This document shows, piece by piece, positions 11,343 through 49,763 of a stretch of DNA of 64,000 nucleotides (position 1 is its first letter; each line of letters opens with the position of its first letter). A program made the translations under genes and the position numbers. The notes beneath the pieces were generated by a model. It did no database searches. It saw only the letters and a list, made by a program, of their open reading frames with translations, and was not told the DNA's origin. The DNA comes from Kineosporia babensis (GTDB lineage: Bacteria > Actinomycetota > Actinomycetes > Actinomycetales > Kineosporiaceae): NCBI RefSeq assembly GCF_021129305.1, contig NZ_JAJOMB010000013.1, positions 124,001 to 188,000 on the forward strand, in the 5' to 3' direction.

Positions 11343-11388
11343 TAAGGACGGGGTGCGCACCCAGGTGCGCACCCCGTCCTTAGTTTTT
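11343..11388. terminator. bidirectional terminator between divIVA-like and sugar operon
   Basis: TAAGGACGGGGTGCGCACC (11343-11361) pairs perfectly over 19 bp with its reverse complement at 11364-11382, separated by only CA. A T-run follows at 11384-11388 for the plus strand. It lies 10-15 bp from the stops of two convergent genes and serves both. Confidence 0.9.
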
Positions 11389-46162: not shown

Positions 46163-47341
46163 ATGCGCGGCATGTCTGTCGAGCGTCGTGACGTCGTGCT
46201 GCTGGGTTCCACCGGGTCGATCGGGACCCAGGCGATCGACGTGGTCAAGAACAACCCCGACCGCTTCCGGATCGTCGGCCTGGCGGCCGGCAGCCAGGTC
46301 GGTCTGCTGGCCGAGCAGGCGGCGCAGCTGCAGGTTCCGGTGGTCTCGATCGGGGACGCGTCCCGGCTGCCGGATCTCGAGGCGGCCCTGACCGCGTTCG
46401 CCGGGAAGGACCACGGCATCGAGATCCTGGCCGGCCCGGACGCCGCGGCCGAGCTCGCGGCCCGGCCCTGCGACGTGGTGCTGAACGGCATCACCGGCGC
46501 GATCGGCCTGGCGCCCACCCTGGCCGCGCTCGGCGCCGGGCACACCCTGGCCCTGGCCAACAAGGAATCGCTGATCATCGGCGGCGAGCTGGTCACGGCC
46601 GCCGCCGCGCCCGGCCAGATCGTGCCGGTCGACTCGGAGCACTCGGCCCTGGCCCAGGCGCTGCGCGGGGGGACCGCGGACGAGGTCAAGCGCCTGGTGC
46701 TGACCGCCAGCGGGGGCCCGTTCCGCGGCCGGACCCGGGCCGAGCTCTCGGCCGTCACCCCGGCCGAGGCGTTGAAGCACCCGACCTGGGACATGGGCCT
46801 GATGGTGACCACGAACTCGGCCACCCTGGTGAACAAGGGTCTGGAGGTGATCGAGGCGCACCTGCTCTTCGGCATCCCGTTCGACCGGATCGACGTGGTG
46901 GTGCACCCGCAGTCGATCGTGCACTCGATGGTCGAGTTCACCGACGGCTCGACCCTGGCCCAGTGCTCGCCGCCCGACATGCGCCTGCCGATCGCCCTGG
47001 GGATGGGCTGGCCCGCCCGGGTGCCCGGCGCCAATCCCGGCCTGGACTGGACCACGGCCTCCAGCTGGGACTTCTTCCCCCTCGACGACGAGGCCTTCCC
47101 CGGAGTGCGCCTGGCCCGGGCCGCCGGTGAGCAGGCGGGTACGTTCCCCGCCGTCTACAACGCCGCCAACGAGGAATGCGTCTGGGCCTTCCACGAGGGC
47201 CGGCTCGGCTTCACCCAGATTCTCGACGTGGTCGGCGACGTCCTGGCCGACCACACCGAGGCCGGCGAGCTCAGCATCGAAGGCGTCCTGGCCGCCGACA
47301 CCTGGGCCCGTGCCCGGGCCCGCGAGCGCATGGCCCAGTAG
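46163..47341 (+). CDS. dxr: 1-deoxy-D-xylulose 5-phosphate reductoisomerase
   Basis: 392 aa. Second step of the MEP isoprenoid pathway: DXP to MEP with NADPH. The NADPH motif is [18 protein letters not shown]. Metal and substrate residues lie in [20 protein letters not shown] and [32 protein letters not shown] and [12 protein letters not shown] complete the family pattern. ATG 46163 is used; ATG 46172 (SVERRDVV) is equally possible and might be leaderless. Downstream are a 48-bp palindrome and, in inverted orientation, the GNAT and ispG genes. Confidence 0.96.
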
Positions 47342-47420
47342 CCGCCTCCGCCCGCCATTCACCGACAGCTACGAACCTGCCTGGTCGGTCACCGTCAGCG
47401 TCCGCAGTGGCCACCCTCGA

Positions 47421-47468
47421 ATGTGTACACCTGGCACATCCGGTACCGGATGTGCCAGGTGTACACAT
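47421..47468. terminator. perfect 48-bp palindrome after dxr, probable bidirectional terminator
   Basis: Every base of 47421-47444 pairs with 47468-47445, with no spacer; the centre is CGGTACCG. The arms contain the smaller palindrome GTGTACAC and the pair TGGCACA/TGTGCCA. RNA from either strand would fold to a hairpin of about 22 bp with a GTAC loop. It lies between dxr (plus) and the GNAT gene (minus). No T-run follows, so a recombination or protein-binding site remains possible. Confidence 0.7.
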
Positions 47469-47490
47469 CGCGTGGTGGGCTGCGCAGGCC

Positions 47491-47610
47491 GGTGCGGCAA
47501 ACAAGGCGATGAGGCGATGAGGCGATGAGGCTAGGCAAGGCGATGAGGCGGTGCGGCAAGGCAAGGCGATGAGGTGGCAAGGCGATGAGGCGGTGCGGCG
47601 AGGCGACAAG
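47491..47610. repeat. degenerate short-unit repeat (GGCGATGA / GGCGGTGCGGC)
   Basis: AAGGCGATGA occurs four times and GGCGATGA six times in about 100 bp, interleaved with GGCGGTGCGGC (twice complete). The unit lengths vary (8, 16, 18 and 26 bp), so it is a simple-sequence expansion rather than a regular array. The rest of the dxr-GNAT gap (47342-47734) holds only this and the 48-bp palindrome; no gene is supported. Confidence 0.75.
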
Positions 47611-47734
47611 CTGAGCCGGTCTGGTCGGACACGTCCAACTGCCCGGCCGCCGCGCTGCCGGTGGGCGAGCGCTGAGTTGGCCGGCTGGATCGGGAGGTCT
47701 GGATGCGGGTGGTCCGGAGCCTGGTGTCGGCCGA

Positions 47735-48586
47735 TCAGAAGAGGATGGTGGCGTAGGTGCCGACGGTCTGGAAGCCGACTCGTTCGTAGGCCCGGATGGC
47801 CCTGGTGTTGTAGCCGTTGACGTAGAGCGAGACCACCGGGGCCACCTCGCGGCGCACCGACTCGACCAGCGCCGCCATCGCCGGGGCGGCCACCCCCTGG
47901 CCCCGGTAGCGCGGGTTCACCCAGACTCCCTGCACCTGAACGGCTTCCGGGACCACCGAGCCCAGCTCGGCCTTGAAGACCACGACCGGGCCGGACTCCG
48001 TCTCGTCCATCCGCACGTACGAGCGCCCGGCCGCCACCAGCCCGCTGACCTGGGCCCGGTAGACCGCCCCGCCGTCCGCCGCCACCGGCGAGTAGCCGAC
48101 CTCCTCGGTGAACATCGCCACGCAGGCCGGGACCAGCAGCTCCAGCTCGGACATCTGGCTGCGCCGCACCAGCGGGTCGGGCTCCACCGAGGGCGCCGAC
48201 GACATCGCCATCAGCGGCTGGTTCGCCCGGATGTCGCGGGCCGGGCCCCAGGAGGCCTGCAGGTGCTGCCACAGGCCCAGCACCATGTGCGCCGGGCCGA
48301 CGATCGAGGAGCACTGCCGCCCGCTGCGCCGGGCCCGGTACGCGAACGCCTCGACTGCCTGCTCGCTGGCGTTGACCGGCACCAGGTTGGCGCCGGACCA
48401 GCAGGCCGCGCGCATCGAGCCGCCCTCGTACCAGCCCCAGATCTCGCCGCCGTGCCGGCGCGGGTCGCCGCGCAGCGCCCGCAGCCGGGCGGCCACGAAC
48501 AGGTTGGCCACCGGGTCCTGGTCGCACAGCGCCAGGGCCTCTTCGACGTCGTCCCTGGCCAGAACCTTCAGCGCCGAGCGCAGCAA
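47735..48586 (-). CDS. GNAT family N-acetyltransferase with DUF4081 N-terminus
   Basis: 283 aa. The N-terminal 130 residues are DUF4081-like (EEALALCDQDPVANLFVAAR, GGEIWGWYEGG); the C-terminal half is a GNAT domain with the acetyl-CoA loop VNPRYRGQGVAAPAM and the end NTRAIRAYERVGFQTVGTYA. It resembles Rv2867c, which follows gcpE/ispG in Mycobacterium. Substrate unknown. The start is TTG 48586 with GGGGA about 8 nt upstream; no in-frame ATG or GTG is nearer. It follows ispG by 25 bp. Confidence 0.85.
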   Translation of the reverse strand: MLRSALKVLARDDVEEALALCDQDPVANLFVAARLRALRGDPRRHGGEIWGWYEGGSMRAACWSGANLVPVNASEQAVEAFAYRARRSGRQCSSIVGPAHMVLGLWQHLQASWGPARDIRANQPLMAMSSAPSVEPDPLVRRSQMSELELLVPACVAMFTEEVGYSPVAADGGAVYRAQVSGLVAAGRSYVRMDETESGPVVVFKAELGSVVPEAVQVQGVWVNPRYRGQGVAAPAMAALVESVRREVAPVVSLYVNGYNTRAIRAYERVGFQTVGTYATILF

Positions 48587-48611: not shown

Positions 48612-49763
48612 CTAGCTCACGGTCACCGAAGGCGTGCCCTCGGGCGCATCATCGCCCATCTCCTCGGCGATCCGCATCGCCTCGTCGATCAGCGTCTCGA
48701 CGATCTTCGACTCCGGCACGGTCTTGATCACCTCGCCGCGGACGAAGATCTGCCCCTTGCCGTTTCCGGAGGCTACTCCGAGATCGGCCTCACGCGCCTC
48801 GCCGGGCCCGTTCACCACGCAGCCCATCACGGCCACCCGCAGCGGGACCTCCATGCCCTCCAGGCCGGCGGTCACCTGCTCGGCCAGCGTGTACACGTCG
48901 ACCTGGGCCCGCCCGCAGGAGGGGCAGGAGACGATCTCGAGCTTGCGCGGGCGCAGGTTCAGCGACTGCAGGATCTGGATGCCGACCTTGACCTCCTCGA
49001 CCGGCGGGGCGGACAGCGACACCCGGATCGTGTCCCCGATGCCCTGGCCGAGCAGGTGACCGAAGGCCACGGCCGACTTGATCGTGCCCTGGAAGGCCGG
49101 GCCGGCCTCGGTGACGCCCAGGTGCAGCGGCCAGTCCCCGCGCTCGGCCAGCAGCTCGTAGGCCCGGACCATGACCACCGGGTCGTTGTGCTTGACCGAG
49201 ATCTTGAAGTCGCGGAAGCCGTGCTCCTCGAACAGCGAGGCCTCCCAGACCGCCGACTCGACCAGCGCCTCGGGGGTGGCCTTGCCGTACTTCTCCAGCA
49301 GCCGCTTGTCCAGCGAGCCGGCGTTCACCCCGATCCGGATCGAGGTGCCGGCGTCCCCGGCGGCCTTGGCGATCTCCTTGACCTTGTCGTCGAACTGCCG
49401 GATGTTGCCCGGGTTGACCCGGACCGCGGCGCAGCCGGCGTCGATCGCGGCGAACACGTACTTGGGCTGGAAGTGGATGTCGGCGATCACCGGGATGCCG
49501 GACTTGCGGGCGATCGCGGGCAGCGCCTCGGCGTCGTCCTGACTCGGGCAGGCCACCCGGACGATGTCGCAGCCGGCCGCGGTGAGCTGCGCGATCTGCT
49601 GCAGCGTGGCGTTGACGTCGGAGGTCAGCGTGGTGGTCATGGACTGCACCGAGACCGGTGCGTCGCCGCCGACCGCGACCTTGCCGACCTGGATCTTGCG
49701 GGATTTGCGGCGCGGGTTGAGGACCGGGGGAGGTGCGGTCGGAATACCTAGACTGACGCTCAT
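48612..49763 (-). CDS. ispG: 4-hydroxy-3-methylbut-2-enyl diphosphate synthase (flavodoxin)
   Basis: 383 aa. Penultimate MEP-pathway enzyme, reducing MEcPP to HMBPP with a 4Fe-4S cluster. The cluster cysteines are in [11 protein letters not shown] and [10 protein letters not shown]. The TIM barrel starts [18 protein letters not shown] 49763 ([11 protein letters not shown]) is used, with GGAGG 12 nt upstream, rather long. The gene is inverted relative to dxr and rip1, unlike the usual dxr-rip1-ispG-GNAT order. Confidence 0.96.

Follow-up and report, generated by a model that had tools for sequence, protein, structure and literature searches.

What keeps a perfect palindrome of 48 bp, without any spacer, between two convergent genes of Kineosporia babensis, and what purpose might it serve? 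Bacterial chromosomes are expected to lose long perfect palindromes (SbcCD, replication slippage). The palindrome in the window analyzed here, a stretch of 64,000 nt from this species, is exact, as an earlier note on the DNA had read it: all 48 bases are identical to those of its own reverse complement. It is also, as was claimed there, longer than any other in the window, in which the runner-up perfect hairpin (loops of 0–12 nt searched) has 19-bp arms and a 2-nt loop (11343-11382). At the window G+C content of 69.5%, the arithmetically expected number of 24-bp perfect arms is about 1e-8 per 64 kb. As RNA, the hairpin had a predicted folding energy of -55.9 kcal/mol (z -9.55). The features of the locus are listed in Table 1.

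Table 1 Features at and around the palindrome, in window positions
Feature	Position	Strand	Basis
dxr (DXP reductoisomerase), upstream neighbour	46163..47341	+	TIGR00243, 383.5 bits (cut-off 315.7); Pfam
Left outer arm (CCACCC...), partner of the right outer arm in the predicted fold, outside the perfect palindrome	47411..47420		RNA fold
Perfect spacerless 48-bp palindrome, window copy of the Kineosporia family	47421..47468		Exact self-complement
44-bp family core, five GTAC-like words in 9-bp steps	47423..47466		Sequence; alignments of 60 copies and 17 mostly diverged copies
Right outer arm (...GTGGTGGG)	47469..47478		RNA fold
Tandem repeat array of AGGCGATG and its longer multiples, same intergenic gap	47504..47604		TRF
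DUF4081/GNAT-domain protein, convergent neighbour	47735..48586	-	PF13312, PF00583
ispG (gcpE), beyond GNAT and on its strand	48612..49763	-	NF001540, 535.4 bits (cut-off 345); gene call, start codon as chosen by the codon-usage gene caller

The length of the palindrome is not unique within its species. An 800-kb stretch of the window's genome contained 40 hairpins with arms of ≥14 bp (loop 0–12), compared with none in a single mononucleotide shuffle of the same stretch, and seven hairpins with perfect arms of ≥20 bp, including a spacerless 50-bp palindrome (C1:545480-545529). The remaining long hairpins of this genome have sequences unlike the repeat family described below, and some of them are terminator-like; it is sequence, not length, that sets the window palindrome apart from them. 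In the same species, AGGACG...CGTCCT recurs near the base of the stem in several of its longest hairpins (C1:209993-210047, 545480-545529, 199916-199964, and 792044-792091).

The window palindrome belongs to a family of dispersed repeats that has so far been found only in Kineosporia. The search for copies of its arm that the earlier note had proposed returned, in the 9.4-Mb genome of origin, 109+101 matches to the 16-nt arm GTGTACACCTGGCACA (≤3 mismatches) and 20+14 matches to a reversed control. A related word was surveyed in 13 genomes of the taxonomic family, namely six of Kineosporia (G000-G005, with G000 being the window's species, G002 K. mesophila, and G003 K. rhizophila) and seven of other genera. 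It was clearly enriched in four of the six Kineosporia genomes (G000, 44+35 vs 3+6 in the control; G002, 45+44 vs 2+3; G003, 26+21 vs 2+4; G004, 45+41 vs 7+2), weakly if at all in G001 (9+8 vs 3+3) and G005 (7+6 vs 4+0), and stood near the control level in the seven genomes outside the genus. A 44-bp pattern had 7 sites in G000, 29 in G002, 2 in G003, and 35 in G004 (controls 0), and the same pattern search gave 0 sites in G001 and G005. With a covariance model, for which 150 candidates were scored per genome so that the counts are lower bounds, two-strand matches at E ≤ 0.01 numbered 26, 74, 23, and 82 in G000, G002, G003, and G004, respectively, corresponding after halving to at least about 13, 37, 12, and 41 sites; among the 150 candidates scored in each of G001, G005, G006, and G010 there were no matches. 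The window copy (G000:C5:171416-171473) was matched at E 1.3e-15 by a model that had this copy among its input.

Beyond these genomes, a scan of 84,980 species with one genome each, which may omit records of or close to the window's genome, detected the 44-bp pattern in just two species, K. mesophila with 25 loci and K. rhizophila with 1. The family pattern was not detected in IMG/VR, nor the consensus in PLSDB or INPHARED, and a phage or plasmid origin was rejected on this basis. A known RNA family was also rejected, as the seven Rfam matches (six microRNA-type, one snoRNA) all fell under the gathering scores. No report of the family emerged from a literature search on Kineosporia plus palindromes and on REP/MITE in actinobacteria or Streptomyces, with most subscription journals outside its scope. 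In the window's species, some family copies are embedded in a longer repeat (L010, L011, L013, L029, and L033 in plus orientation; L008, L014, and L026 in reverse; C1:194182-194391), with a second family of hairpins, GCGTAAACAAAGTG...CACTTTGTTTACGC, close by and seen also at C1:682313-682358. Another recurrent long hairpin, TGATCATGC(A/G)AAG...CTT(T/C)GCATGATCA, was noticed in G004 and K. mesophila (L145:6102, L203:795, and L166:6281).

In the copy-rich genomes (G002 and G004), the element is a 54-bp palindrome with the consensus GCGTTGTGTACACCTGGTACATCCGGTACCGGATGTACCAGGTGTACACAACGC, in which five GTAC words are spaced at 9 bp. Pairing of the arms, estimated from 70 distinct copies, was ≥80% up to position 26 and 64% at position 27, and then about 0.3, which is the chance level. 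Among copies fitting the 44-bp pattern, a perfect core was present in 26 of 35 in G004, 19 of 26 in G002, one of seven in G000 (the window copy), and neither of the two in G003. The words of the window core are GTAC (47425-47428), GCAC (47434-47437), GTAC (47443-47446), GTGC (47452-47455), and GTAC (47461-47464). Copies with three, four, or five units exist, and the 9-bp phase is kept in each: covariance-model matches in G000 and G003 were mainly 40, 49, and 58 nt long (the others being one of 54 nt and one of 51 nt on one strand), and the K. mesophila ortholog (L242) of the G004 copy L150 is exactly 9 bp shorter with its hairpin kept.

The symmetry of the family is maintained by paired mutations. 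Across 60 aligned rows (57 distinct copies), 94.8% of cells were paired, two-sided changes were found at 12 of 26 pairs, and 49 cells had changed on both sides, compared with 12.3 ± 2.9 in shuffles; in 17 mostly diverged copies, the two-sided changes numbered 38 vs 17.2 ± 3.0. The G and C of every GTAC-like word, whose standing-out was noticed post hoc after inspection of the data, were 99% identical in these 17 copies, and variation at the bases in between comes in matched pairs. Conservation of whole GTAC columns in the inner core was not significantly above that of the rest (p 0.14). Furthermore, the bases directly outside the 44-bp core pair copy-specifically (p 0.008); farther than 5 nt from the core, outer-arm pairing in the GTAC family showed no such copy specificity (p 0.60, 0.87, and 0.44). 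A weak flank consensus extends leftward from the core for about 27 nt and rightward for about 18 nt (60 oriented copies). Mismatches on the sense strand, counted as a possible means to tell RNA from DNA, were G-T in 12 cases vs A-C in 6.

Between species, the core is conserved well beyond its surroundings. In nine ortholog pairs of G004 and K. mesophila, the 56-bp element was identical at 488 of 503 positions (97%, 1 gap column) and the flanks (308 bp, partly coding) at 2019 of 2489 (81%, 567 gap columns), a difference with a Fisher p of 3e-24 if columns are treated as independent. Nineteen of the 35 G004 sites pair with K. mesophila by their flanks, after L151/L174 and L208/L174 were dropped as spurious low-identity matches, and 16 are unpaired, including L208; at least four more G004 sites are common to G002 (L150 and L135 as 4-unit, L144 and L207 as 5-unit). 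Twelve of the 16 unpaired sites were probed in G002 (L208, L204, and L206 lay outside the probe), and a locus was obtained for 11 of them, with L215 as the exception. The G002 locus was alignable and element-free for L138, L149, and L153, aligned poorly and lacked the element for L212, and was unalignable with no core for L214, L152, L142, and L209. Reciprocally, G004 lacks the element at the locus (L250) that corresponds to the G002 site L156. Wherever the element was missing at an alignable locus (L156/L250, L138, L149, and L153), a larger intergenic stretch was missing or replaced, and there was no clean empty site among the element-free orthologs. Direct repeats of 4 bp flanked at most two of 42 copies at any one offset, and this gave no convincing target-site duplication. 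The Y1/RAYT transposase (PF01797) occurs in G000 only of the six genomes and was not found in G002, G003, or G004.

None of 49 copies lies within a predicted gene, as called by a simple codon-usage caller trained on the window's species. With regard to neighbouring genes, 15 of these sites, which may contain one or two orthologous duplicates, are convergent, 26 codirectional, and 6 divergent, with 2 left unassigned. Length-weighted expectations are 0.158, 0.480, and 0.361, respectively, such that convergent gaps are in excess (binomial p 0.005) and divergent gaps in deficit (p 0.0003). Nineteen of the 26 codirectional copies are closer to a 3' end (p 0.014). Copies lie a median of 128 bp from the nearest 3' end, with 3 of 41 within 50 bp. 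Around six sampled copies, nine of ten neighbouring proteins had a Pfam match, and no family was common to them. The earlier suggestion that survival of such a palindrome points to a selected use is borne out by the conservation of the core far above its flanks, by the paired changes, and by the lack of copies in predicted genes.

At the window locus, the palindrome begins 79 nt after the dxr stop codon, and 266 nt separate it from the stop codon of the GNAT gene. The earlier note had placed it exactly where an inversion of ispG and GNAT begins, and had proposed a look at the same junction in relatives. The placement at an inversion found no support there: dxr and GNAT are convergent in all six Kineosporia genomes (from reading the sequence and locating the ends of dxr), and an inversion hotspot was rejected on this conserved order. 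The family palindrome occupies the junction only in the window's genome among the six. The gap contains some hairpin in every one of them, with a different sequence each time, the weakest (G001) having an 8-bp stem without excess folding energy. Because all six gaps have a hairpin and each is different, the presence of a hairpin seems to be kept at this gap while its sequence changes.

Family copies also tend to lie in gaps with tandem repeats: such repeats were present in 20 of 47 gaps with a family copy, compared with 8.8 expected from gaps matched for orientation and length (p 0.0001), and gaps with other long hairpins had no enrichment (1 of 13, 1.8 expected). G005, a single contig without the GTAC family, contains 40 sites of a sister family, CCCCCTATACC-N5-GGTATAGGGGG (≤3 mismatches; one at G005:C1:488854-488880), and none was found in the other five Kineosporia genomes. 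Among the 33 copies analyzed (L258-L283 and others, with L273 and L279 near-identical), the outer arms differ from copy to copy and pair within each copy (duplex energy -13.9 with the own arm, -9.7 when swapped, p 0.0002). Predicted genes contain none of the 33; 13 lie in convergent, 16 in codirectional, and 4 in divergent gaps, and tandem repeats are present in 22 of the 33 gaps (12.6 expected). One copy of the sister family sits in the dxr-GNAT gap of G005. Even chromosomal spacing was rejected for the sister family in G005, whose sites seem to be spaced at random (CV 0.84 vs a random mean of 0.96). Two perfect palindromes in the same genome (G005:C1:113646-113681 and 233630-233673) have the same centre, CTTTCGATTATCGATAATCGAAAG, and different outer arms.

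The family resembles several known systems and is identical to none of those compared. According to the main text of Di Nocera et al. 2013 (PMC3733652), REPs are dispersed palindromic repeats that lie mostly between unidirectional or convergent genes, as the present copies do, and form many families of 20-100 units; those of the GTAG and CGTC superfamilies are 20-40 bp repeats with a 5-13 bp stem and, at one end, an unpaired tag (GTAG or CGTC). The same text associates the RAYT (Y1) transposase with GTAG-type REPs only, so that the lack of a dedicated transposase is a further likeness to CGTC REPs, and it mentions none of Kineosporia, Kineococcus, actinobacteria, or actinomycetes. In contrast to REPs, the Kineosporia element is a symmetric, spacerless 54-bp palindrome with arms of 26-27 bp and an internal 9-bp phase. 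A fixed REP-type tag is absent from the family: in the 12 nt beyond the arm, GTAG occurred in 0 of 42 copies on either side, and CGTC in 8 of 42 on one side, compared with 2 in the control flank, and in 2 of 42 on the other. A RAYT/REP identity is ruled out by the tag, the stem size, and the absence of the transposase from the copy-rich genomes.

SLS families, in the main text of Cozzuto et al. 2008 (PMC2267715), which does not mention Kineosporia or Kineococcus, are intergenic repeats with a common predicted secondary structure that are thought to act as RNA. Like SLS or ERIC-like repeats, the Kineosporia copies are intergenic, dispersed beside unrelated genes, and have a secondary structure in common; to this the family adds perfect dyad symmetry, a step-wise unit number, and a fixed G..C every 9 bp. 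Paired DNA uptake sequences also form intergenic hairpins from a short, species-typical word repeated at a fixed distance (PMC2267715, main text), but the Kineosporia word recurs each 9 bp within a single element. Finally, mycobacteria are reported, in the accessible text of PMC12288462, to use I-shaped terminators, which have no U-tail and lie within 50 bp of the stop codon. The window hairpin is similar in lacking a U-tail and standing downstream of a gene in a related high-GC group, but family copies generally lie farther from the 3' end, the window copy included. I-shaped terminators are not known to have a sequence in common between genes, whereas that of the Kineosporia hairpin is conserved among copies. 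An intrinsic terminator in the usual sense, a GC-rich hairpin plus a T-tract, does not describe the window copy either: prediction over window positions 46900-48000 found no terminator-like site with a T-tract.

We consider that the family is best explained as a genus-restricted, dispersed, REP/SLS-like intergenic hairpin repeat with a putative RNA role at the 3' ends of genes, a reading to which we give a probability of roughly 0.55. Once transcribed, the copies would form highly stable RNA hairpins downstream of genes and may contribute to transcript termination or protection, from one side or both; the hairpin at the dxr-GNAT junction would face both convergent genes, and a termination role for it is possible. 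The G..C positions fixed every 9 bp may reflect recognition by some protein, whether a nuclease, an RNA-binding, or a DNA-binding protein, and since the fixed G and C exceed the needs of a plain hairpin, a role in binding double-stranded DNA is possible too. Against this reading stand the lack of a T-tract terminator-like site at 46900-48000, the median distance to the nearest 3' end, which is far for a terminator, the 6 of 47 placed copies between divergent genes, and the two Kineosporia genomes (G001 and G005) that live without the family.

The core could also be read in another way, which we regard as unlikely: a dimeric or oligomeric DNA-binding protein would read the GTAC-like words in 9-bp duplex steps at 30-40 intergenic sites per genome, for nucleoid organisation or global regulation, and its own dyad would explain the paired changes. 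The near-invariant G and C, the phase kept in 3-, 4-, and 5-unit versions, the perfect dyad, and the conservation between orthologs all suit such a chromosomal or regulatory site, as does GTGTACAC, which we take to fit the GT-N-TA-N-AC operator type of HutC-type GntR regulators. However, the copies avoid divergent, promoter-rich gaps, two genomes of the genus have no sites, the unit number differs between orthologs, and a protein on duplex DNA has no need of the copy-specific pairing just outside the core. We see an equally low probability for a selfish, miniature, non-autonomous palindromic mobile DNA without host function, its symmetry maintained by transposition or hairpin-templated repair and its presence tolerated between genes. 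Patchy presence among species, the element-free orthologs in both directions (3 of 12 probed G004 sites, and L156), the weak flank consensus, the longer mosaic repeat among copies of the window's genome, and the gaps rich in tandem repeats point that way. Yet the core has been conserved since the split of G004 and K. mesophila, where the element is absent a larger part of the intergenic region has also gone or been replaced, target-site duplication was not convincingly seen, Y1/RAYT is lacking in the two richest genomes, and no copy was found in plasmids, phages, or IMG/VR contigs.

An ordinary intrinsic terminator of dxr and GNAT, with an origin independent of the other palindromes, we hold to be very improbable. 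It would suit the convergent junction, the hairpins of other sequence there in five related genomes, and the U-tail-less terminators reported for mycobacteria (PMC12288462, accessible text), but the sequence is common to copies beside unrelated genes, there is no T-tract, and the other long hairpins of the genome differ in sequence. The existence of the repeat family refutes an independent origin. The earlier note had anticipated that similar palindromes behind many unrelated genes would reveal an ordinary terminator type of the species. The first part proved true, as such palindromes stand beside many unrelated genes and the window copy is no single special site; the second did not, as they form a sequence-conserved family and the window copy lacks a T-tract.

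A broader proposal, which we put forward as quite unlikely, is that Kineosporia species each have their own long dispersed hairpin families occupying the same kind of site, even the dxr-GNAT gap, with 9-bp steps that would be read by a co-evolving protein and with local tandem duplication promoted; the comparison covers four genomes with GTAC-phased elements and a fifth with CCCCCTATACC-N5-GGTATAGGGGG, with the sixth outside it. If true, the genus as a whole would have a class of symmetric palindromic elements that turn over fast and have no known transposase. The different hairpin family of a sister species, with a copy in the same gap, would allow hairpin function to be studied apart from sequence, and the 9-bp step with its fixed G and C makes a sharp prediction on what reads the element. 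Two genomes with 35 and 29 long-palindrome sites offer a natural experiment on the survival of such DNA in bacterial chromosomes and on the purpose that it serves.
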